Assembly: GCA_003559095.1 (NCBI GenBank)
Contig: PWMW01000285.1
Coordinates: 1 to 64,000, forward strand
DNA length: 64,000 nucleotides
Reading direction: 5' to 3'
Source: Clostridiales bacterium
GTDB lineage: Bacteria > Bacillota > Limnochordia > Darwinibacteriales > B1SED10-159
The notes below the pieces were generated by a model. It was not told the DNA's origin. It worked only from the letters and a program-made list of their open reading frames with translations, and did not search any database. This document shows positions 14,162-63,335 of the stretch, in pieces (the first letter of the stretch is position 1; each line of letters begins with the position of its first letter). The position numbers and the translations under genes are program-made.

Positions 14162-14333
14162 GCATGTCCGTCCTCTCGTCTACGGGGTTCGGTTTGGCTT
14201 AATGATGTTGGGTCTTTCAGTGAAGTACTGCAGACTAATGCTCGACAACTGCGCTATTGCGCTGGGGGTCGTACCTTGGTTCCTTCAACTGCACCCAAAG
14301 AGTAGTGCCCTCGCCGGGGAACAACCACCCAAA

Positions 14334-14829
14334 GTGTCCACGCCAATACCCTTGTGCATAGGCCATCTTAGGTGTTCGTGGTCACGGAAATCCCGATGAA
14401 CGGGATTTCGCGGTTCCTGTTTGACGTATCCATGATACCTGCAAGGTGGACTCCAAGGTGTCCACGCCAATACCCTTGTGCATAGGCCATCTTAGGTGTT
14501 CGTGGTCACGGAAATCCCGATGAACGGGATTTCGCGGTTCCTGTTTGACGTATCCATGATACCTGCAAAGTGGACTCCAAGGTGTCCACTCCAATACTCT
14601 GGTGCACGAGCAATCTCAGGTGTTCGTGGTCACGGAAATCCCGATGAACGGGATTTCGCGGTTCCTGTTTGACGTTTTCATGATACCTGCAAAGTGGACT
14701 CCAAAGTGTCCACTCCTAACTCTGGTGCACGGGCCATCTTCGGTGTTCGCGGTCACGGAAATCCCGATGAACGGGATTTCGCGGTTCTTGTTCGGCGTGT
14801 CCATGATACCTTCAAGGTGGACACCTGGA
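14334..14829. repeat. Four tandem 124-bp repeats with conserved hairpins
   Basis: Four copies begin at 14334, 14458, 14582 and 14706 with an exact 124-bp period. The first two are nearly identical and the last two carry scattered changes. Each contains a perfect hairpin, GAAATCCC-gatgaac-GGGATTTC (14387-14409, then at +124 steps), unchanged in all four. Across each unit junction there is a second inverted repeat, GTGGAC...GTCCAC. The array fills the gap between a TIM-barrel gene and the 3' end of the metalloprotease gene and contains no gene with a ribosome site. Confidence 0.95.
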
Positions 14830-31034: not shown

Positions 31035-31256
31035 TTTTTCCAGACACCTGGTATGAGGGAATTTTTTCCAGCTACCTGGTGCATGGTAATTTTTTCCTTC
31101 TACCAGGTATATGGAATACATTTCCAGCTATCTATCAGGCACATGGAATACATTTCCAGCTAACTGGTACATGGTAGGATTTTCCAGCTACCAGGTACCT
31201 GGCAACTTCTTCCATCTACCAGGTACATGGAACATATTCCCAACTACCAGCCCCCC
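31035..31256. repeat. Cluster of 23-bp near-palindromes, seven to eight copies
   Basis: Copies begin near 31035, 31063, 31090, 31122, 31153, 31181 and 31208, with a partial one near 31238. Each has TTCCA, then a TACCWGGTA-like core, then TGGAA or a variant; the copy at 31210-31232 is almost perfectly self-complementary. Copies are separated by short A/T-rich text. The cluster occupies the gap upstream of the phosphohexomutase gene, beyond its ribosome site. Confidence 0.88.
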
Positions 31257-35714: not shown

Positions 35715-36176
35715 CTAATTTACTGAGTCCGGATTGAAGTCCAGACGGTACACAGCTTCGCCATCGTCCATAGCACCAGTATCTACGAAGCCGACCTGGG
35801 TATAGAGCTGCTTGGCTGCCAAGTTATCTGGAACGAAACTGATGAACACAGTCTTATGCCCTTGACTGCGCACATCGCTCAGCAGCGTGTTCATAGCTGC
35901 CCGGCCATACCCCTTGTTTTGGTGCTCATGGGCAAGCATGAAGCGGCAGATCCAATAGCCATCAAAGTCGTCGCCTTCCTCCGACAATCCATCCATGATA
36001 AAGCCAACCATGGTATCACCATCGTAGATCCCGCGGCAGACCCACTCCGATTCCCCGTACGCCTGCGCCAGGGAGTAGAGATTGCTGGCCACATACTTCT
36101 CTTGGTTCGGATGAACCTTCAAGTCCAAGGCCGTCTGCCAGTTTGCGCGGTTGATCGGCCGCAGCTGTACGTCCAT
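35715..36176 (-). CDS. GNAT acetyltransferase, diamine/spermidine-type
   Basis: The 153-residue protein is a compact GNAT. 'VQLRPINRANWQTALDLKVHPNQEKYVASNLYSLAQAY' at the start is typical of the BltD/spermidine acetyltransferase-like subgroup. The acetyl-CoA loop is 'HQNKGYGRAAM' (Q/R-x-x-G-x-G/A), and 'SFVPDNLAAKQLYTQVGFVDTG' is the last conserved helix-strand. The substrate is probably a polyamine or another small amine. ATG 36176 follows GGGAGG by 6 nt. The gene is 15 nt from the lyxose-isomerase-like gene and 20 nt from the PfkB gene, so all three form one transcription unit. Confidence 0.85.
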   Translation of the reverse strand: MDVQLRPINRANWQTALDLKVHPNQEKYVASNLYSLAQAYGESEWVCRGIYDGDTMVGFIMDGLSEEGDDFDGYWICRFMLAHEHQNKGYGRAAMNTLLSDVRSQGHKTVFISFVPDNLAAKQLYTQVGFVDTGAMDDGEAVYRLDFNPDSVN

Positions 36177-36196
36177 TTGACCTCCCCTTCCTTATG

Positions 36197-37126
36197 TCAA
36201 AGTATTCGCTGCAGAACAACGTCATCCTGCAGGCTAACTGCAAGATCCACATCGAAAACTGCTGCGCCCATGGAACAAGCATTGGCGGCGGCCAAAGCTA
36301 CTGCATCCACCAAAATCCGTTCCCAATCATGGCCCGCTGCCAACCCGCGGATCAGCCCCGCATTCATCGTATCGCCGCAGCCCACGGCGCTTACCACCGT
36401 AATGGCCGGAGGCCGCACGGCGAACACCCCAGCTGGCGTCACGGCCGTCAGCGGCTGGGCACCATCGCTGATCATTACCGCCTGCAAATGGTGCTCCTGC
36501 AGCAGCCGCTGCGCTGTGGGAACCATATGATCCGAACCGCCGAACCCTGCATCCTGCCACTCTTGGGCATTAATCTTCACCACATCCACCCAAGGCAGAG
36601 CTTCCAAAAGCCACGGAGCCCGCACATCCATCAGCACAGGCACATTGGTCAAATGCCACTGCTGCAGAACATCGGCCAAGCAAGCAGGGCGGGCAAACGT
36701 TTCCGGATTGCCGGCCACCACCACACCCCGCAGCTGCGGCCAAGTGGCCTGCGGACGGAGCGAGGCCAACTGCTGCCATTCCCCGTCTGTGACGGGCGGT
36801 CCCTGCTCCAAAAACTCGAAATGCACCTGGGCGTCCGGAGACGTCACAGTGGTGCAGATCCGCGTTGTACCGTCCACAGGCACGAAAGCCGTGTTGATCC
36901 CAGCTTCCTCCAGGAGAGCCTGCACTTCCTGGCCCACATGGCCGCCCAAAACCCCGGCGGCTACCACGGTTTCGCCCAGACGCGCCAAGGCCCGGGCGCT
37001 GTTGATCCCTTTGCCCCCGGCTACCGAAACATGCGGCGGTAAACGGTGCACGCCACCTTGAGCTTGGAAACCTTCCACTATATAGAACTTGTCCAATGCC
37101 GGATTCGGCGTCAGCGTTAGGAACAC
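36197..37126 (-). CDS. PfkB-family hexose kinase, 1-phosphofructokinase/tagatose-6-P kinase type
   Basis: The 309-residue protein has the FruK/LacC signature: 'FLTLTPNPALDKFYIVEGF' at the start, 'VSVAGGKGINSARALARLG' (PfkB motif 1), 'RICTTVTSPDAQVHFEFLEQGP' and the catalytic 'VSAVGCGDTMNAGLIRG' (Asp base in GCGD). It should phosphorylate a hexose phosphate such as fructose 1-phosphate, tagatose 6-phosphate or a related ketose phosphate. GTG 37126 is preferred (GGAGG 8 nt upstream, and it gives the canonical N-terminus); TTG 37129 is the alternative. It sits upstream of the GNAT and lyxose-isomerase genes. Confidence 0.88.
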   Translation of the reverse strand: MFLTLTPNPALDKFYIVEGFQAQGGVHRLPPHVSVAGGKGINSARALARLGETVVAAGVLGGHVGQEVQALLEEAGINTAFVPVDGTTRICTTVTSPDAQVHFEFLEQGPPVTDGEWQQLASLRPQATWPQLRGVVVAGNPETFARPACLADVLQQWHLTNVPVLMDVRAPWLLEALPWVDVVKINAQEWQDAGFGGSDHMVPTAQRLLQEHHLQAVMISDGAQPLTAVTPAGVFAVRPPAITVVSAVGCGDTMNAGLIRGLAAGHDWERILVDAVALAAANACSMGAAVFDVDLAVSLQDDVVLQRIL

Positions 37127-37170
37127 CAATCAAACCTCCTTTGAGTACGCCACCTTGTAGCTACGGCGCA

Positions 37171-38118
37171 TCACTGGCCCCATCGGCGCAAAGCCTGCTC
37201 CAAAAATGCTTCCAAACGGTCCGCAACCATTTGGTCAGTCAGGTGGGTCACACCCAACTGCTTCCACCCCTCATCCACCTGTGGTGGACCAAAGAGGATG
37301 TCAAACAGGCAATGCATATCCCAGCGGGGATCGTAGACAAAGTCAGCAGGAGCATCTCGGCAGTACAGCTGCAAAAATTCGTCGGCGGCTTCCAATCCAT
37401 ACAACTGCGCCAAATCGAGACGGCACTGTCCTACGTCCACCTGCGGCGGTCCCACGCAGGCATTGGCCCAATCCACGATGCCCTGCAGACGACCATCGCT
37501 AAACAGCAAGTTCCCCGGATGAAAGTCCCGGTGAATGAAACTCTGCGGTCCCTGTGGCTGCCAGTTCCGCAGAACATCCAGGGCCTGAGCCAACAACTCC
37601 GGCCGTCGCGGCCAAGATGGAATCACAAACGTGTCAAAATCCTGATAGACCTGGTATTTCCAGGCAAAGTCGCTGCCGCCCACACGGTGAATATGCAGAG
37701 CAGCTGCGGCCATCGCCTGCAGACGCTCAGACAGACCCTGCGGCTGCAGAACCACGGCACCCGGCAGATAACTCATGAGCAGGGCGGGAACGCCCCCATG
37801 GACACCATGGACATCCACGGCGAGACCCCGCGGTGCGGCCAGCCCGGCCGCTGCCGCTGCCTGCAGAGCCGCCATTTCGTGCAGAGCCAAATCCGGTTCT
37901 TCCTCCCGCCACTGCGCATTGGTGTAAAGGCGCAGCACAGCCGTGGCGCCAGCCTCCCCTCGGTCAGCTGCGCTCATGGCCGGGACTTCGCTGCGCACCA
38001 CAAACATGTCGGCGGACGTTCCCCCGTAGAGACGCTGGACATGAGATATTGCACCTCCGCCCAGGACATCGCTCACCCATGCTTCCAGTTGCTCGTTCCA
38101 CAGTTCGGGTCTTGCCAA
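37171..38118 (-). CDS. Aminoglycoside phosphotransferase (APH)-family kinase
   Basis: The 315-residue protein has the APH/choline-kinase fold. The Brenner loop is SFIHRDFHPGNLLF (catalytic Asp in HRDFHPGN), and the metal-binding 'GIVDWANACVGPP' follows. The N-terminal lobe carries 'AVLRLY' as the ATP-binding lysine strand with Arg in place of the usual Lys. Members phosphorylate antibiotics, homoserine, choline, sugars or fructosamines; no feature proves drug resistance. TTG 38118 is supported by GAGGAGG 7-8 nt upstream. It is 45 nt upstream of the PfkB gene, and a 15-bp tandem repeat lies upstream. Confidence 0.85.
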   Translation of the reverse strand: MARPELWNEQLEAWVSDVLGGGAISHVQRLYGGTSADMFVVRSEVPAMSAADRGEAGATAVLRLYTNAQWREEEPDLALHEMAALQAAAAAGLAAPRGLAVDVHGVHGGVPALLMSYLPGAVVLQPQGLSERLQAMAAAALHIHRVGGSDFAWKYQVYQDFDTFVIPSWPRRPELLAQALDVLRNWQPQGPQSFIHRDFHPGNLLFSDGRLQGIVDWANACVGPPQVDVGQCRLDLAQLYGLEAADEFLQLYCRDAPADFVYDPRWDMHCLFDILFGPPQVDEGWKQLGVTHLTDQMVADRLEAFLEQALRRWGQ

Positions 38119-38150
38119 CGATCTTCCTCCTCTTCAATCCAAGGTCGGGC

Positions 38151-38210
38151 ACCATCCGGTGGGTAACCATCCGGTGGGTAATCATCCCGTGGGTAATCAT
38201 CCGGTGGGTA
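38151..38210. repeat. 15-bp tandem repeat, four copies
   Basis: Four units ACCATCCGGTGGGTA (two perfect, two with one or two changes) fill the 104-bp gap between the GNAT stop and the APH-like start. Each unit contains the short palindrome CCGG. Confidence 0.92.
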
Positions 38211-38222
38211 GTGCCGCCAACC

Positions 38223-39050
38223 CTATGATGACTTAGGTACATGATCCAATGTGAACACCGTGTACGTGAAGGCTGGCAAAAATCCACAGCCCTCCGCCAG
38301 TCGCTTCGATGGCACATTGCTGTCCATACAATCCCAATCCATGGTAATGCCGCGCTGGCAGCAGTGATCCACCATAGCCCGGGTGACGGCACCCGCCAGG
38401 CCTCGGCGGCGGTACTCTTCCTTCGTATCCACGCCCAAGGCCCAGTGCCCGCCGTGAGCTACGAACGATGTGTAACAGCACGATACAGCTTCGCCGTCCA
38501 CAACGGCAGCATACCCCGCCCCCCATTGCCAGAACCGGTCCAATGAGGACCACCAACTGCGCAAAATGCTCTGCAGCCACTGCGTATCGGCGGATGTCTC
38601 TTTGAGCCAGGCTGGTGTCACTGCACAGATCTGGCTCTCAGATGACTGCACACCTGACGGCTGTGCGGTGCCAGAGCAGTCATGGGGCTCCTGGCGGTAG
38701 ACCCACTGCACCCACTCTTCGGCGCCCAGGACACCAAGTTCGTCCCGCAACAACCGGTCCCAAGCATCCGAATGAGAACTGAGCTCTATGTAAGTAACGA
38801 TGCCTTTGGGTAGGTGGGCAACGGCTTGTGCCAGGGCCTGTGCTATCCAACACTTCCGTGCTCGCCCCACAACGTAAAACCCGCTCTGGCCCTGGGAATA
38901 CAGCAACGCTGTCTCAGGCTGCTGGCCGTCATCCACCCAAACGTAACCTGGACTGGCTCCCAAGACAATGCTCTTCACCTCTGTGTTAATCCGCGGACCC
39001 TGAAGCAGTGGCTTCACCAACGCTAGCTCTTCATCGACCAGCCTCTGCAT
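38223..39050 (-). CDS. GNAT acetyltransferase, ZmaR-like family
   Basis: The 275-residue protein has a poorly conserved N-terminal half and a C-terminal GNAT domain: 'YAAVVDGEAVSCCYTSFVAHGGHWALGVDTKEEYRRRGLAGAVTRAMVDHC' (acetyl-CoA loop RRRGLA) and 'DWDCMDSNVPSKRLAEGCGFLP'. The length and this C-terminus match the GNAT family that includes the zwittermicin A resistance protein ZmaR. The acceptor is unknown. ATG 39050 has AGGAGG 8 nt upstream. The 5' side is flanked by 107-bp repeats, and the downstream neighbour is an APH-type kinase. Confidence 0.82.
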   Translation of the reverse strand: MQRLVDEELALVKPLLQGPRINTEVKSIVLGASPGYVWVDDGQQPETALLYSQGQSGFYVVGRARKCWIAQALAQAVAHLPKGIVTYIELSSHSDAWDRLLRDELGVLGAEEWVQWVYRQEPHDCSGTAQPSGVQSSESQICAVTPAWLKETSADTQWLQSILRSWWSSLDRFWQWGAGYAAVVDGEAVSCCYTSFVAHGGHWALGVDTKEEYRRRGLAGAVTRAMVDHCCQRGITMDWDCMDSNVPSKRLAEGCGFLPAFTYTVFTLDHVPKSS

Positions 39051-39110
39051 CTGTACAGCACCTCCTTAATCTGAACTAGGTACGTTTATTCACATTTCTC
39101 CGATATCCCA

Positions 39111-39360
39111 TATTCTTCCACATACCAGGTAAAAACAAAACCAAACAGAACAGGCAAACCAATTCCTCCAAACCATGCTCATCCGTGGCCGCCCCACGAC
39201 TGGCATCGTTCTATCCATATTCTTCCACATACCAGGTGAAAATAAACCCAAACAGAACAGTCAAACCAAATTCTCCAAACCATGCTCATCCGTGGCCGCC
39301 CCACGACTGGCATCGTTCTATCAATATTCTTCCACATACCAGGTAAAAACAAATCCAAAC
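39111..39360. repeat. 107-bp tandem repeat containing TACCAGGTA half-sites
   Basis: Copies start at 39111 and 39218, with a partial third at 39325, at an exact 107-bp period and over 90% identity by eye. Each starts TATTCTTCCACATACCAGGT, which is a half of the near-palindromic repeat seen at 31.0, 52.8 and 63.2 kb. The remainder of 39361-39509 is A/C-rich and shows no gene. Confidence 0.93.
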
Positions 39361-39509
39361 CAACCAGACAATCCAACCCGTCCAGCCCACTCAACAAACA
39401 TAACCTGCCCAAACCACACTAATCACCGGAACCTGTAAACCACCACAACACCCAAATGGTCCAATGGTCCAAGTTCCCATACCCACCACAACTACACGGC
39501 CCCTGCTCC

Positions 39510-40286
39510 TCACAGCACTTGGGAGTCCAGCCACCGACGCAGGTAACGTTCCTCTTCGGGAATGCCTTCGTTCAGTCGGAAAGCAGCCACGATTGGCAGC
39601 CAGTAGCGGACCGCCTCCTCAGACCAAGGTCGCAGAGATCCATAGCCCCGGCGGTAGCGCCAATGCAGATAGCCGATGATCGCGCGCATCCAATGTGGCC
39701 TCCCATAGTCCCCGTGAACGGCAGCTTGGAGCAGCAGCACGGTACGAGCAGCATCGGCGGCGGCCCAGCCACTGGTAGCATTGATCCAATCAATGACCAC
39801 GGGGCCGGAGGGAGCCAACAGAATGTTGCCCGGGTGATAATCGCCGTGGCACATGGTTGCTTCGGGCGGCTGGGCCAATACTCGCTCGAGAAGCTTCTGC
39901 CGCACACCGCCATCCAGATCCGGTGCTTTTCGGATCCCTTCGCAGAGAATATCCCTCTGCGGGGGCAGCTGTGCGCCGGAAATACTGTGCATGCGCGCCT
40001 GAAGCTGTCCCAGCACAAAGCCCCAGTGATGCAGACCATGCGGTGAAAGGAGTTGCTTTTCCATGGTTGGCCCGCTGATCTTCTGCAGGCCAAGCCGATC
40101 ATGCTCCACCGCCAGGACCCGGGGCGCAGGAAATCCAGTGTCCCAAGCTGCCTGCGTATTGGCTCCTTCCTGGGCGATGAGCTTCGGGTCCACAGCGGAC
40201 AGGAACACCTTCCACGCCATGCTCCCATCTTCCATGACCACTGCCTGCCGTCCACGGCCTAACTCATGCATGTGGTTGCCATCCAT
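39510..40286 (-). CDS. Aminoglycoside phosphotransferase (APH)-family kinase
   Basis: This second APH-type kinase has 258 residues. The N-lobe shows 'GRGRQAVVMEDGSMAWKVFL' (glycine loop and ATP Lys). The catalytic loop is ATMCHGDYHPGNILL, and the metal site 'PVVIDWINATSG' follows, as in the TP53RK/choline-kinase-like APH branch. The substrate is unknown. ATG 40286 is used because GGGAGG lies about 9 nt upstream; GTG 40295 overlaps that site. It is separated from the next gene downstream by the 107-bp repeat array and lies just downstream of the peroxiredoxin region. Confidence 0.85.
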   Translation of the reverse strand: MDGNHMHELGRGRQAVVMEDGSMAWKVFLSAVDPKLIAQEGANTQAAWDTGFPAPRVLAVEHDRLGLQKISGPTMEKQLLSPHGLHHWGFVLGQLQARMHSISGAQLPPQRDILCEGIRKAPDLDGGVRQKLLERVLAQPPEATMCHGDYHPGNILLAPSGPVVIDWINATSGWAAADAARTVLLLQAAVHGDYGRPHWMRAIIGYLHWRYRRGYGSLRPWSEEAVRYWLPIVAAFRLNEGIPEEERYLRRWLDSQVL

Positions 40287-40378
40287 CCCAAGCACCTCCC
40301 CGGCGTCACAACTGACGCGGTCCGTAACACTATTCTCTGGTTTTCATTCTGGCGCCTCAGGCGAAATTCCTGTTCGCG

Positions 40379-40410
40379 CAAAGAGACATCCGGTACCGGA
40401 TGTCTCTTTG
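40379..40410. repeat. Perfect 32-bp palindrome
   Basis: CAAAGAGACATCCGGT is followed immediately by its exact complement. As RNA it would form a 14-bp stem with a GUAC loop. It lies between the peroxiredoxin gene and the APH-like gene, and on either strand the following T tract is only three bases, so it is a poor classical terminator. Confidence 0.85.
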
Positions 40411-40420
40411 AACTATTCTC

Positions 40421-40577
40421 GAACTTCCATCCACAACTCTTACTGCGAACTTCCATCCACAACTCCTACTGCGAACTTCCATCCACAACTCCTACTGCGA
40501 ACTTCCATCCACAACTCCTACTGCGAATTTCCATCTATAAATGCTGCTTCGAACCTCCAAGCCATAGCTCCTGCTGC
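40421..40577. repeat. 26-bp tandem repeat, six copies
   Basis: Four near-identical 26-bp units (GAACTTCCATCCACAACTCC plus TACTGC) start at 40421, 40447, 40473 and 40499, followed by two diverged ones. Immediately after (about 40588-40670) come imperfect GCACTGCTCTGGCG repeats. No gene lies in 40287-40734. Confidence 0.93.
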
Positions 40578-40734
40578 GCAGATCCACTCGGGCGGCACTG
40601 CTGTGGCGGCACTGCCCTGGCAGCACTGCTCTGGCGGTTCTACTCTGGCAGCTCTGCTCCAGCAGTTCCCTTATCCTGCTCAATCCAGTTGATCCGATTC
40701 TGGATCCGAGCTTCCCTTCCGTGAGCAAGTTGCT

Positions 40735-41454
40735 CTATTCGTCGAAGGCTTCGCTGACTTTCCATTCCTTCCAAACATTACCCACCAGTTCAGGGCTGGG
40801 TTTCAGAGTTTTCTTACCCGGCTTCCAACCAGAGGGCGTAGCTTCCGTTCCTTTGGACTCCCGTACCAACTGGAATGCCTTAATCTGGCGCAGGGTTTCG
40901 CCCACATTGCGTCCTACCGGCGGTGTCAGAACCTCAAAGCCCTGCACAACGCCATCGGGATCGATGAGGAAACGTCCACGGGTTTCCGTGCCGCCTTCTT
41001 CATCAAAGACGCCATACATCCGACCGACTTCGCCACCTTGGTCAGCCAACATGGGGAATGGTATGTCCTGGCCGATCATCTTCGATAGCTCATGATCATT
41101 CCACATCTTATGCACGAACACACTGTCCACACTAACGGACAGAACTTGGACACCCAACTTCTCAAATTCAGCATGCTTGTCGGCAACTGCCGACACTTCC
41201 GTTGCTCAGACGAAGGTGAAGTCGCCGGGGTAGAAGCAGAGCACGACCCACTTTCCTTTATACTCAGCTAAGTTCACATTGGCAAATTTGCCTTTGATGT
41301 ACGCGGGCAGGGTGAAGTCTGGTGCAGGTTGTCCTACTTTGATCATTGTGCTTGCTGCCTCCTTCTGGGTTGGGGTTGCGGCCGCTGGGTCTTCAGTGGC
41401 AACCTTTTGCTTAGCTTTCGGCCGCTGGCATCCAGCTTTGAATTCTTCAGGCAC
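40735..41454 (-). CDS. prxU: Selenocysteine peroxiredoxin (in-frame UGA at peroxidatic site)
   Basis: The AhpC/Prx1-type thioredoxin-fold peroxidase reads in one frame through a TGA at 41206-41208. The sequence is ...VVLCFYPGDFTFV-[UGA]-ATEVSAVADKHAEF..., so the UGA replaces the peroxidatic Cys of the FTFVCPTE motif. No frameshift is needed. A SECIS-like hairpin follows the UGA. Downstream text (DQGGEVGRMYGVFDEEGGTETRGRFLIDPDGVV, GRNVGETLRQIKAFQLV) is intact. The usual resolving Cys (VCPAGW) is replaced by ATPSGW. Two starts are possible: GTG 41454 with AAGGAGG 8 nt upstream, giving a 36-residue extension containing one Cys, or ATG 41346 (MIKVGQPAPDFTL, the canonical start) with AAGGAGG 11-12 nt upstream. 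The product reduces peroxides in the cytoplasm. Confidence 0.87.
41178..41195 (-). promoter_or_regulatory. Bacterial SECIS-like hairpin
   Basis: On the coding (minus) strand, ten bases after the TGA, a perfect 7-bp stem UGUCGGC/GCCGACA encloses the loop AGUU. Known bacterial SECIS hairpins lie within about 16-37 nt of the UGA and have a G among the first two loop bases. Here the loop G is 19 nt past the UGA and is the second loop base. Confidence 0.8.
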
Positions 41455-41602
41455 AGGCAAAACCTCCTTCACAAATATGGGGCGGCATTACGGACCCGAT
41501 GTATACCTAATCGCGCTGCCCGCACAGTGGCAGCGGACTCTTCAGAGAGCCATACTGCGACCGCTTCTATGTCTGGCAGGTGCAGACCGCCCTTATTAAT
41601 AA

Positions 41603-41631
41603 TTTATATCACATTTGGCAGAAAAAAGCAA
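41603..41631 (-). promoter_or_regulatory. Sigma-A promoter for the peroxiredoxin gene
   Basis: On the minus strand TTGCTT and TATAAA are separated by exactly 17 bp, in an A+T-rich stretch (about 41590-41710) that stands out from its surroundings. Transcription would start near 41596, leaving a leader of about 140 nt before GTG 41454. Confidence 0.7.
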
Positions 41632-41708
41632 CTCGAACTTCACTATTTCGTAATAATTAAGTACTCGACTTACGAATTAGTTGCATTAGCTGTGATCTTT
41701 ATAACGAA

Positions 41709-43055
41709 TTATGGTTTCACCGTGATATCCCGGATCAAAGGCACTCCCACCCAAGGCTCCGAGACCCCATCTTGGTTCCAAGGCACCCGTTTCGATTGAT
41801 ACGCTTCATCATAGGTGCGATCGAAGTGCACATGGAGCGTGGGTCCACCCACAAACCGTACCTGCAGTACATCCGCCGCAGCATAGCCCTGGACCAGCAG
41901 GGCTTCCCGCCCCATCCGATACAGGAGATCCCATACGGCCTCAGTACCCTTGTTCCGCAGCTCTTCGGCGAACGGAGCCGTGAGCAGAACATCCATCCAA
42001 TCCCAAACATTGGCCGAGATGCCCTCCACCATCTGCAGCAGTACCGCCCAAAAACTGATCGGTTCAGCGCTATCCAAAACGAACAAGCCTGCTTCCACTG
42101 CATAGCGGTAACGTAGACGCTCGTAGGCAGCAATGCGGAAAAAGTCTTCCTGTGACCACGGGCATTCCGAGCGCACCGGCGGCAGGGAAGCATCGGCATC
42201 CCATGCCACGTAGGCCGCCGTCCGTTCCCAATCAGCAGGGGTCACGGTGGTCAGAGTCAACAGGTCCTCTTCCTCGTCCCAAAGCAGCCACTCACCGGTT
42301 GCCTTCAGCAGAACACCCCGGTGATCCAACACATAGTGCGCAGGCAGAATCTCCGGTGTGAAGTAACCGCTGGCCAGCAGGATAGCTGGCTCGTCTGCAG
42401 CGGGCAATTTTAGGTTCCGGGTTCGATGATAGACTCGCGTCGAATCAATGTTCCCGGACAGGTCCATAATGCCGAAGACTCCGTCTTCTTGTCGTCGCAA
42501 CAGGAAAAAGGCCGTATGATCCGAAGAATAGTCCACTGCATAGGCCTGGCTGCCAAAACCAAACAGTTTGAAGTCGCCATGAACAGCTTCAAAAAAGAGC
42601 AGGTCCTCCACTGGCCGTTCCAACAGCCATGGATACTGGTCGCTCATGAGCTGACGCATGCCGCCAGCGGTTGGAAACGAACCGTCAATGGCTGCCAGCG
42701 CCCGCCCTGCTGCAGCGGCCACATGCATGGTCCCATCCCACTGCAGTTGCTCCAAGCTAGGTACGGCTTGGTCAGCTTCCCTGCCGATCTTCCCTAGGAC
42801 TTCCACCACCCGGTAACGCACAGAGGCCATTTCGTGGTCCAACAGCGGCAGCAGGCGCGGAACCACCCATTCGCCTAACTCCACCAACTCTTCTACGGCT
42901 CGACTAGCCGCAATCCAATTGCTGTCCTGCAGATCGTGCAGCAGGCGATCCACTTGGTCCGGAACCACTGCCTTCGCGTCAATCACCGGACTCTGACCTG
43001 CCACTAACAGGAAAAACACAATAATATAGACCATTGCTGCAAGTCCCCGGTGCAT
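41709..43055 (-). CDS. Exported HEAT-repeat protein
   Basis: The 448-residue protein has a signal peptide (MHRGLAAMVYIIVFFLLVAGQSPVIDA). HEAT-like helices follow at about 35-120 (WIAASRAVEELVELGEWVVPRLLPLLDHEMASVRYRVVEVLGKIGREADQAVPSLEQL). The remaining 320 residues are mixed alpha/beta without a family I recognise; 'YAVDYSSDHTAFFLLRRQEDGVFGIMDLSG' resembles a beta-propeller or lipocalin-like strand pair. It probably acts as a periplasmic adaptor. ATG 43055 has GGGGTG 6 nt upstream. It follows the PfkB operon by 138 nt and may be cotranscribed with it. Confidence 0.7.
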   Translation of the reverse strand: MHRGLAAMVYIIVFFLLVAGQSPVIDAKAVVPDQVDRLLHDLQDSNWIAASRAVEELVELGEWVVPRLLPLLDHEMASVRYRVVEVLGKIGREADQAVPSLEQLQWDGTMHVAAAAGRALAAIDGSFPTAGGMRQLMSDQYPWLLERPVEDLLFFEAVHGDFKLFGFGSQAYAVDYSSDHTAFFLLRRQEDGVFGIMDLSGNIDSTRVYHRTRNLKLPAADEPAILLASGYFTPEILPAHYVLDHRGVLLKATGEWLLWDEEEDLLTLTTVTPADWERTAAYVAWDADASLPPVRSECPWSQEDFFRIAAYERLRYRYAVEAGLFVLDSAEPISFWAVLLQMVEGISANVWDWMDVLLTAPFAEELRNKGTEAVWDLLYRMGREALLVQGYAAADVLQVRFVGGPTLHVHFDRTYDEAYQSKRVPWNQDGVSEPWVGVPLIRDITVKP

Positions 43056-43192
43056 TCGTCTCACCCCATTTTCAGTTCTTCCGACGTCCTACGTCCTTCA
43101 CCGCACCGCGGCACCCACGTGCCCCACTGCATTTCCCATCGGACGTCTCAAAAATCAACTATCAAATCCTCCATCAAAACGCTCGTTTCCGC

Positions 43193-44302
43193 CTAACCCG
43201 CTGGCAGCCAAATGCCGCTGGGCTGCTGGCCAAAACCATCCGTTACAATCCCCGTCGCCCGCAGCGGCCAGCCCCGCTCCATGCGCTGACGCACCACTTC
43301 GAGACTGGGAATCCCTTCGGTGGCACTGACCACTTCCACACAAAAAGCTGCCACGGCAGCGGCCAATGCGGCCCCAGCTGCGGGTTCCATCCCTTCGTGG
43401 ATTGCTGTCAGCAACCCGGCAATGGCCGTATCCCCAGCTCCGGTGGCGCCGCGATTCACCACGTCATAACAGGGCATCAAACCAGTTAAGCCAGCCCACA
43501 GTCGCAGTGGTTCATGACTATGGTGCCGCAGCGTGTCGGCTCCGGCAAGGAACAGACCTTGCTCACCCAGTTTAATCCCCACCAAACCAGCTCCCCACTG
43601 CTGCAGGCGCTCGGCAAGATCCTGCAGATGCTCTACGGTCACAGGGTTCGGCGCAGGTTCCTTCAACATCACCATCAACTCATCATAACTGGGCAGGAAA
43701 ATGTCGGTAACTGGCAGCACACGCTGCAGCCAGACAAACCAATCAGCGGTAGCCGCCTCCGACTGCGGATCGGGGTATGCCGTATCCAAACTGGTCACAA
43801 TACCCATCTCCCGCAGGCGGCCAAACATGGTGGCCAGGTTCTCGCCCCCGTCACTGTACATACTGTGCATCAGCGGCGGATAGCCAAAATGGAAAATGGT
43901 CACTTCGTCCAGCCGATCATAGGGTACATCCGACCAATGAAAGGTGCCATTGGGGCCCGGATCATGAATGAACATACGGTCGGCGTCCGGGGGCGAGATC
44001 ACCAGCGCATAGGAGGAAGCCACATCACTAACCCGCTGGATCAGCATCCGTTCCGGCGGATGGACCTGCTCCAGCACAGACATGGTCAGATCTCCCAACA
44101 GATCCGAACCTACCTTGCCAATGACAAGCGGATTCATCCCCAATCGGGCCAGCGCTCCCCCGGTATTGGACATCGCACCGCCGGTGGTAATCTGCATTCC
44201 CTCAGAATGCACCGTACTGCCGGGCTTCAGCGAACTAACGGAGCCTTGGTTCCAGCCGGGAATCAAATCAATGCAAACATGTCCCGCCGCTGCAATGGTC
44301 AT
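43193..44302 (-). CDS. PfkB-family carbohydrate kinase
   Basis: The 369-residue ribokinase-like kinase has 'TIAAAGHVCIDLIPGW' at its start, 'TTGGAMSNTGGALARLGMNPLVIGKVGSDLLGD' (PfkB motif 1) and the catalytic 'VVNRGATGAGDTAIAGLLTAI' (GAGD, Asp base). It phosphorylates a sugar or sugar phosphate; the substrate is unknown. ATG 44302 follows AAAGGGTG by about 8 nt; the open frame to 44461 overlaps the aldolase gene. It ends the OPA transporter-PHP-aldolase operon, so kinase and aldolase probably work in sequence on the same ketose phosphate. Confidence 0.88.
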   Translation of the reverse strand: MTIAAAGHVCIDLIPGWNQGSVSSLKPGSTVHSEGMQITTGGAMSNTGGALARLGMNPLVIGKVGSDLLGDLTMSVLEQVHPPERMLIQRVSDVASSYALVISPPDADRMFIHDPGPNGTFHWSDVPYDRLDEVTIFHFGYPPLMHSMYSDGGENLATMFGRLREMGIVTSLDTAYPDPQSEAATADWFVWLQRVLPVTDIFLPSYDELMVMLKEPAPNPVTVEHLQDLAERLQQWGAGLVGIKLGEQGLFLAGADTLRHHSHEPLRLWAGLTGLMPCYDVVNRGATGAGDTAIAGLLTAIHEGMEPAAGAALAAAVAAFCVEVVSATEGIPSLEVVRQRMERGWPLRATGIVTDGFGQQPSGIWLPAG

Positions 44303-44402
44303 ATGGACACCCTTTCCGTCAATGGCTGCCGTTATGTCTGCAGACATCCCGGGACCAGCCGTCCTTCTCTGGATCAAGATCTTCGGTCTACCCAGATAGC
44401 GC

Positions 44403-45257
44403 CTACATCGGCTGTGTGCCAAAGACGGCGATCTGGCGCTTCGTATTGGCAGTGATGGCACCCCGTCCCACAGCCGTCAGATCAGGATAGGTCATAGGTC
44501 TGCCCGCAGCCAGCGCTTCCTTGACCGCTTCCACAGCCAACAGGGCATTCTCCGTATAAAAGTTCACTTTGTTAATCCCGCGGGCAATGGCCGCCTGGAA
44601 ATCCGCCTCAGTCAGGCCGGACCCCCCGTGTAGAACCAGCGGCACAGTGGTGTTCTGACGGATGGCTGCCAAGCGAGGCAGATCCAACTCCGGTGTCTGC
44701 CGATACGGACCATGCACGGTACCCACCGCCACGGCCAGGGCATCCACCCCGGTCAAATGGACAAACTCCGCGGCCTGCTCAGGATCTGTGTATCTGCCCG
44801 TATCCACTTCACTACCGCCCTCAAAGTCCCCTTCGCCGCCGGCCACATGGCCCAACTCAGCTTCAATACTGACTCCGGCCATATGGGCCAAGTCTGCCAA
44901 CTCCCGGGTCTGGGCTATGTTGTCATCCCATTCCAACGTCGATCCGTCAAACATCACCGAGGAAAATCCCCAGTGGATGGCTTTGACTAAGGTTTCTTTC
45001 TTTGTACCATGGTCCAAATGCAGAACCACAGGCACTGGCGATTGGGCGATCCGCTGCTTCAGATAGGGAACGAAACGTCCAAGATCCAGATAGCGAAAAT
45101 GGACTTCGGCCACACTGAGAATGACGGGCGTTCCCGTCTCCTCGGCAGCAGCCAATACACCTTCCACAAAATCATGATTCGTCACATTAAAGCTGCCCAC
45201 TGCATATCGCTGCGGCACAGCTGGTTCCAAGACATCACGGAGCGTCATTAAAGGCAA
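44403..45257 (-). CDS. Class II fructose-bisphosphate/tagatose-bisphosphate aldolase
   Basis: The 284-residue protein is a zinc class II aldolase (FbaA/GatY/KbaY group): 'YAVGSFNVTNHDFVEGVLAAAEE', 'VVLHLDHGTKKETLVKAIHWGFSSVMFDGS' (catalytic Asp and zinc His in HLDHG), 'SIEAELGHVAGGEGD' (Glu), 'VAVGTVHGPYRQTPELDL' (zinc His) and 'VPLVLHGGSGLTEADF' (zinc His). It cleaves a ketose 1,6-bisphosphate to DHAP and an aldehyde. TTG 45257 is chosen because GGAGG lies 7 nt upstream; ATG 45248 is 16 nt from it. Encoded between the PHP phosphoesterase and the PfkB kinase. Confidence 0.92.
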   Translation of the reverse strand: MPLMTLRDVLEPAVPQRYAVGSFNVTNHDFVEGVLAAAEETGTPVILSVAEVHFRYLDLGRFVPYLKQRIAQSPVPVVLHLDHGTKKETLVKAIHWGFSSVMFDGSTLEWDDNIAQTRELADLAHMAGVSIEAELGHVAGGEGDFEGGSEVDTGRYTDPEQAAEFVHLTGVDALAVAVGTVHGPYRQTPELDLPRLAAIRQNTTVPLVLHGGSGLTEADFQAAIARGINKVNFYTENALLAVEAVKEALAAGRPMTYPDLTAVGRGAITANTKRQIAVFGTQPM

Positions 45258-45424
45258 TATGCTTCCTCCTTTGGCAGCCCTGTGCAGCACTGCCCCTGAT
45301 TGCTAATTCATTTCGTGGTTGGTGGGGCAAAAACCTTCCCAAACCCCCGACTCAAAACCATTTCCAGCTATAGCCAGGCCGGCTTACCCACCCGCCTCAG
45401 GCCAGATCCCGCCAAAACGTCAGA

Positions 45425-46333
45425 TTACGCTTCAGCAAAAAAGATCGGGTTGCTCCAGGCCGTGCGACCCTTGGAATCCACACACTCCACGCGTACGAAG
45501 CCTTCCCCGCCTCTCCGGCGATACACCGCTTCGGTCAAGCGCTGGCCTGGCTCGGCATGCACACTGCGCCCATGGGGTTCCCAGGCCACGAAGTGAATCG
45601 AACACACCGGCGAGCACTGCACATACACTTCATCGCCGTCCACAGCCCACTCCAAGATCTCTGGACCGGCTGACGAGTAAAAGTGCCCTGCTCGCAGGGC
45701 AGCCAGCACTCCATCCGTGGTCAAATGGTCGCTGCGTACCATCACCCAGCCGCCCAAGGAATCCCCTTCCATGCTGTGACTATCATCCACTGCGGTTCCC
45801 CAGACCTTACGGCCGCGCCGCAGCAGGCTGTCCCAGTACAGAACCGCCAAACCCGTGCGGTTGCCGTACTCGCAGCCGTGGTTATAGATCTCGAACAGGG
45901 AAAATCCCTGCAGATTCTCAATATCTGCGAACTCTCGCCGGGACCAAACAGGATGACAATACATGGTCAAGGCCTGCTCCGCTCCTAAGGAATCCAACAG
46001 AGCCTGCCCCACGTTTTCCCCGGCCTGGGGTGACTGGTAAGGCCGCCCATGCTTCTCCCGCCACGATGCATCACCCAAAGCCACCACATGATGGGTACCC
46101 ACATCGGGATTGATGTCTCCTTCCAATCCGGGCAGAACCAAAAAGGCATCACCCTGCAGAGACTCGTGAAACCCAAAGGTGCGGTGATCTGTGATGGCGA
46201 GAAAGTTCCAGCCCGCGTCCCGATAATGCTCAACCATAGCCGCTGGTTCGGCCCGACCATCAGAAATGGTCGTATGACTGTGCAGATTGCCTTTCCACCA
46301 ATGCCTGCCTACTTCACTAAGTGCGAACTTCAC
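45425..46333 (-). CDS. PHP-domain phosphoesterase
   Basis: The 302-residue protein opens with KGNLHSHTTISDGRAEPAAMVEHYRDAGWNFLAITDHRTF, the two His-x-His and Asp-His metal clusters of the PHP fold. 'GLEGDINPDVGTHHVVALG', 'MYCHPVWSRREF' and 'GTAVDDSHS' provide further metal ligands. It is a metal-dependent phosphoesterase of unknown substrate, probably a sugar phosphate given its neighbours. The last 75 residues look like a small beta-domain. GTG 46333 is used because AAGGAGG lies 7 nt upstream; that ribosome site sits just past the stop of the transporter gene (46370), which keeps the two close. Confidence 0.85.
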   Translation of the reverse strand: MKFALSEVGRHWWKGNLHSHTTISDGRAEPAAMVEHYRDAGWNFLAITDHRTFGFHESLQGDAFLVLPGLEGDINPDVGTHHVVALGDASWREKHGRPYQSPQAGENVGQALLDSLGAEQALTMYCHPVWSRREFADIENLQGFSLFEIYNHGCEYGNRTGLAVLYWDSLLRRGRKVWGTAVDDSHSMEGDSLGGWVMVRSDHLTTDGVLAALRAGHFYSSAGPEILEWAVDGDEVYVQCSPVCSIHFVAWEPHGRSVHAEPGQRLTEAVYRRRGGEGFVRVECVDSKGRTAWSNPIFFAEA

Positions 46334-52795: not shown

Positions 52796-52943
52796 CATAC
52801 CTTGACCACATACCAGGTAACTTCCAGGTTCTTCCACGTACCTGGTAACTCCCAGGTTCTTCCACAGGTAACTTCCAGACCCTTCCACATACCTGGTAAC
52901 TTCCAAACTTTTCCACATACCAGGTACATGGGAAAACTTCCAC
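52796..52943. repeat. Cluster of TACCWGGTAACTTCC repeats, six copies
   Basis: Units CCACRTACCWGGTAACTTCC-AGGTT repeat at 24-29-bp steps from 52803 to 52943; one copy has lost its centre (52861-52880). It is the same family as the 31.0- and 63.2-kb clusters, but with GTAACTTCC in place of the second half. It lies directly 5' of the cutC ribosome site. Confidence 0.88.
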
Positions 52944-63161: not shown

Positions 63162-63335
63162 TTCCATCTACCTGGTGCATGGAAAAAAATTCCAACGTAC
63201 CTGGTATGTGGAAATTATTACCAGATACTTGGTACGTGGAAGTAATTCCCAGATACCTGGTGCATAGCAGTTATTTCCAGATACCTGGTGCATGGAAGTT
63301 ACTCCCAGGTACCTGGTGCATGGGAATGTTTCCCA
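63162..63335. repeat. Cluster of 23-bp near-palindromes, six copies
   Basis: Six units at about 28-29-bp spacing begin near 63162, 63190, 63218, 63247, 63275 and 63303, with a partial one after. The first (63162-63184) reads TTCCATC-TACCTGGTGC-ATGGAA and is self-complementary in its outer and inner arms. Spacers are short and variable, rich in A/T. The rest of 62825-63489 shows no gene beyond the -10 candidate, and a G-rich stretch at 63060-63140. Confidence 0.92.

Follow-up and report, generated by a model that had tools for sequence, protein, structure and literature searches.

A prxU-type gene with a conserved in-frame UGA codon and a covarying SECIS hairpin in a Clostridiales genome

Introduction

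The selenocysteine (Sec)-containing peroxiredoxin PrxU of Peptoclostridium (Eubacterium) acidaminophilum reportedly goes back to a study by Soehling et al. in 2001. That study is cited in PMC8533274, selenoperoxiredoxins are counted among the standard bacterial selenoproteins (PMC1794560), and a seleno-peroxiredoxin, CLOST_2406, has also been described in Clostridium sticklandii (PMC3091704). Known since 2001, the PrxU family is common, and many anaerobic bacteria carry it.

The gene described here is a further member. It lies in a window of 64,000 nucleotides, i.e. the whole stretch of DNA analysed, from a Clostridiales bacterium (assembly GCA_003559095.1, contig PWMW01000285.1). The data show the gene structure, a conserved UGA, a SECIS hairpin whose conservation includes compensatory changes, and the full Sec apparatus in the genome. 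The gene is almost certainly prxU, encoding a thioredoxin-dependent selenoperoxiredoxin of the AhpC/Prx1 fold in which UGA codon 83 is read as Sec by means of the hairpin and SelB.

Results

One reading frame with a single UGA at the peroxidatic position

Two minus-strand ORFs, 41206-41472 and 40735-41196, share a reading frame and are separated by a single TGA. A sequence-only reading of this DNA had proposed that this TGA stands exactly where the Cys of FTFVC would be expected, and it does so at 41206-41208. The features of the locus are:

40735-41454, stop codon included, minus strand: prxU, selenoperoxiredoxin of 239 residues with Sec at residue 83, assigned from model NF040737 and homologues
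41463-41469, minus strand: AAGGAGG, a putative Shine-Dalgarno sequence 8 nt upstream of the GTG, read from the sequence
41206-41208, minus strand: in-frame UGA, codon 83, at the peroxidatic position (PGDFTFVU), TGA in 106/106 homologues
41178-41195, minus strand: bacterial SECIS hairpin with 7-bp stem and AGUU loop, assigned from published rules and covariation

In the alignment, FTFV-U of the window gene stands against FTFVC of AhpC-type enzymes, and the active-site motif PxxxTxxU, as defined in PMC13188914, is present as PGDFTFVU with the UGA at the peroxidatic position. The candidate start codon is the GTG at 41452-41454, six codons inside the mechanically listed ORF; it is the likely start because the Shine-Dalgarno sequence and the start of the closest homologue, an ATG at the same residue (MPEEFKAGCQ), agree on it. 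The gene boundary at 41454 given by the sequence-only reading coincides with this GTG.

The read-through product scores 407.2 bits against the NCBI equivalog model for PrxU, NF040737 (cut-off 270), matches PF00578 with 139 bits and is 79% identical to the copy in a genome of the same family (G002). Homologous loci were fetched with patterns that exclude the Sec site and by a search of 101 genomes, a few loci from the two routes being the same record. All 106 PrxU-type homologues fetched, from several phyla and with 54-79% identity, carry TGA at the Sec codon. An alignment of homologues for Cys or Sec at this site had been proposed from the sequence, and it places TGA at the exact site throughout, with no random stops. 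Four Cys versions were retained as loci (L049-L052); with 37-42% identity, they fall in ordinary peroxiredoxin branches at a greater distance.

Under translation table 11 the TGA interrupts the frame, as it would if a nonsense mutation or sequencing error had left prxU a pseudogene. Such a reading is nevertheless highly improbable and was rejected: the homologues share the TGA codon across several phyla, the frame downstream is intact and conserved, and the genome contains the Sec apparatus. An open frame before and after the TGA is also what genome-wide reassignment of UGA, e.g. to Trp, would produce, with an ordinary sense codon at the site. The chance of this is vanishingly small, and it was rejected, since the genome's own selA, a normal gene, ends at TGA; moreover, the UGA replaces a catalytic Cys rather than Trp, and the genome has a tRNA-Sec(UCA). 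The reading of this UGA as a Sec codon is preferred.

The sequence-only reading had placed PrxU-type proteins in anaerobic Firmicutes. The known family stands, but a restriction to Firmicutes does not, as PrxU is carried in records titled Desulfobacteraceae, Spirochaetes, KSB1, Dehalococcoidia and Chloroflexota, including one plasmid record. It had also warned that automatic annotation would split the gene or call it a pseudogene; NCBI calls prxU whole, and because it is a single CDS in the Chloroflexota record as well as in that of P. acidaminophilum, the warning applies only to pipelines that ignore Sec.

The SECIS hairpin

Ten bases past the TGA begins TGTCGGC-AGTT-GCCGACA, a perfect 7-bp stem with a folding energy of -11.2 to -12.0 kcal/mol (-12.0 in a 30-nt piece) and a z of -2.8 against shuffled sequence. 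Published rules for bacterial SECIS elements (PMC13188914) specify an apical loop of 3-9 nt, an upper stem of 4-16 bp, a G at loop position 1 or 2, a UGA-to-loop distance of 16-37 nt, and a minimum free energy of at most -7.5 kcal/mol. The prxU hairpin has a 4-nt loop whose second base is G (AGUU), a 7-bp stem, a loop that begins 17 nt after the UGA and the energy given above; it conforms to every one of these rules, and its stem covaries. By themselves, the rules and the hairpin are weak, non-specific evidence, because nine TGAs in the window, that of prxU included, pass the same rules while being preceded by 50 or more open codons and followed by 40 or more. An Rfam scan of window positions 36000-46000 gave no match.

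The decisive evidence is comparative: the conserved TGA codon together with compensatory changes in the stem raises the hairpin above chance. Among 94 distinct sequences, five core stem pairs are retained in 95-99%, and the central pair is A-U in 77, G-C in 16 and mismatched in one. The two bases of this central pair are the third positions of a Ser and an Ala codon, and nearly every change in them is synonymous, so that constraint on the protein cannot account for the match. An outer wobble pair, between a Val/Ile and an Asp/Glu codon, is standard in 80/94 and occurs as U-A, C-G, G-C, A-U, G-U and U-G. The covariation score, calculated on 41 representatives, is 0.316; shuffles give 0.113, none of 500 reaching the observed value, and slid versions do not exceed 0.162. 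Of the 94 sequences, 85 have an AGUU loop, seven GGUC, one GGUU and one another loop. A single Anaerosalibacter locus (L124) has TAA at the fifth codon after Sec, inside the SECIS stem, at a position that is Ser (TCA/TCG) in almost every other homologue; this is probably a sequencing error or a broken copy.

Selenocysteine machinery in the source genome

From the in-frame UGA, SelA, SelB, SelD and tRNA-Sec had been predicted elsewhere in the genome, and all four are present, giving the complete Sec-decoding trait. A tRNA-Sec(UCA) scoring 66 bits, on which ARAGORN agrees, lies on contig C167 beside selA (487 bits) and selB (335 bits), and selD (391 bits) is on contig C306, beside putative YedF-like and DUF3343-like frames. 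The genome bin has an estimated contamination of 5%, and contamination was considered as the source of C167. It was rejected: C167 is assigned to the source lineage because its SelB shares 76% identity with the SelB of G001, a genome of the same genus (next best 49%), and GC content is similar (57% vs 56%). The source organism very likely uses selenocysteine.

Across 101 genomes, SelB or a strong tRNA-Sec was found in 22/26 genomes with a UGA-containing PrxU and in 34/75 without (p = 4e-4); for SelB, the association with UGA-containing PrxU gives a Fisher p of 7e-4. Both values are uncorrected for phylogeny. The remaining four of the 26 (G002, G024, G035 and G036) are all fragmented drafts, and selA is present in two of them (G002 and G035), so missing contigs or assembly gaps are the likely explanation. 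In G002, contig C192 (L137) carries prxU with its TGA and the only selA is partial (profile positions 1-257 of 455); assembly gaps are probably behind the absence of SelB and of a strong tRNA-Sec there.

The source genome also encodes a second selenoprotein:

L142:1501-1755, equal to source genome (G000) contig C186:21030-21284: HesB-like selenoprotein with UGA in the UxGP motif

Its in-frame TGA lies in GMG-U-GGP. A candidate SECIS, GUCUCU-GGA-AGAGAC, has a loop that starts 26 nt after the UGA; the 15-nt hairpin alone has an energy of -5.3 kcal/mol, weaker than the published rule. Searches of the source genome for Fdh-alpha and FlpD selenoproteins found none, and a GRDB search gave no match there, the control likewise having no match anywhere.

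Fold and conserved cysteines

An AlphaFold2 model of PrxU (pLDDT 88) has the AhpC/Prx1 fold, and Foldseek matched it to crystal structures of AhpC and Prx1 type with E values of 1e-20 to 1e-23 and TM-scores, normalised by target, mostly of 0.90-0.94. The conserved cysteines are encoded at:

41428-41430, minus strand: Cys9 (FKxGC) in the N-terminal extension, candidate resolving residue, from alignment
41236-41238, minus strand: Cys73 (VLCFYPG), ten residues before Sec, from alignment

Cys9 is found in 103/106 homologues, the other three being gapped, and in 56/58 members of a second alignment (two gaps); Cys73 is found in 106/106. The C-terminal resolving Cys that defines typical 2-Cys peroxiredoxins is absent: its column holds Thr206 in the window protein (EATPSGW vs EVCPAGW) and Thr, Ala or Met, never Cys, across the 58 aligned members.

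This loss would be expected of a 1-Cys-type PrxU, in which thioredoxin or a small thiol reduces the selenenic acid directly and no Cys of the enzyme itself takes part in resolution. Such a mechanism is plausible at somewhat below even chances, and the retention of Cys9 and Cys73, both candidates for resolution, in nearly all members speaks against it. A more tentative proposal is that in the long PrxU subfamily the near-invariant Cys9 takes over the resolving role from a C-terminal Cys and forms a selenenylsulfide with Sec83; if true, the geometry of resolution would be unlike that of typical 2-Cys AhpC. In the AlphaFold model residues 3-5 form a strand of moderate confidence and residues 11-33 are disordered, which makes a swinging N-terminal arm possible. 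Among the papers searched, none names the resolving thiol of PrxU. That the usual resolving Cys has been lost family-wide while two other Cys are kept poses a specific question about the PrxU mechanism.

Repeats in the window

The window contains dispersed arrays of units of about 28 bp (once 107 bp) based on the palindrome TACCWGGTA, which is often enclosed by TTCCA...TGGAA:

31035-31250: TACCWGGTA repeat array
39108-39360: TACCWGGTA repeat array
52806-52926: TACCWGGTA repeat array
63169-63335: TACCWGGTA repeat array

Exact matches of this type number 11 vs 0.16 expected, and the arrays look like a repeat family of the source lineage. Separately, about six 26-bp and five 14-bp tandem units occupy 40420-40659, just downstream of prxU and between it and an APH-family gene, and a 124-bp unit is repeated four times in tandem, 92% alike, at 14329-14822.

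Discussion

The NF040737 score, the homologues, the stem covariation and the sel genes together uphold the original proposal of a selenocysteine peroxiredoxin with in-frame UGA and SECIS; a recoded gene was here correctly called from raw sequence. By analogy with the known family, the window protein would be expected to incorporate Sec, to act as a peroxidase and to use thioredoxin as reductant. A ribosome translating prxU would meet the UGA at codon 83, where SelB, bound to the downstream hairpin, would deliver the Sec-tRNA(UCA) that SelA makes using selenophosphate supplied by SelD, and the UGA would be read as Sec. The Sec selenolate would then reduce H2O2 or organic peroxides, and the resulting selenenic acid would be resolved by a thiol before recycling by thioredoxin.

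Compared with typical 2-Cys AhpC/Prx1 enzymes such as Salmonella AhpC, PrxU has the same fold (TM-score up to 0.94) and the PxxxTxxU/C motif, whereas it has Sec for the peroxidatic Cys, lacks the C-terminal resolving Cys and bears a Cys-containing N-terminal extension. C. sticklandii CLOST_2406, likened here by Sec position and length, has Sec at 84 of 240 vs 83 of 239 in the window protein (PMC3091704). The P. acidaminophilum PrxU (WP_084481301.1) is 67% identical over 98%, with Sec at 84 of 240, and shares the N-terminal FKPGC, the LCFYPGDFTFVU segment and the SECIS layout (UCAGC-AGUU-GCUGA); it differs in sequence divergence only, its central stem pair being A-U where that of the window gene is G-C.
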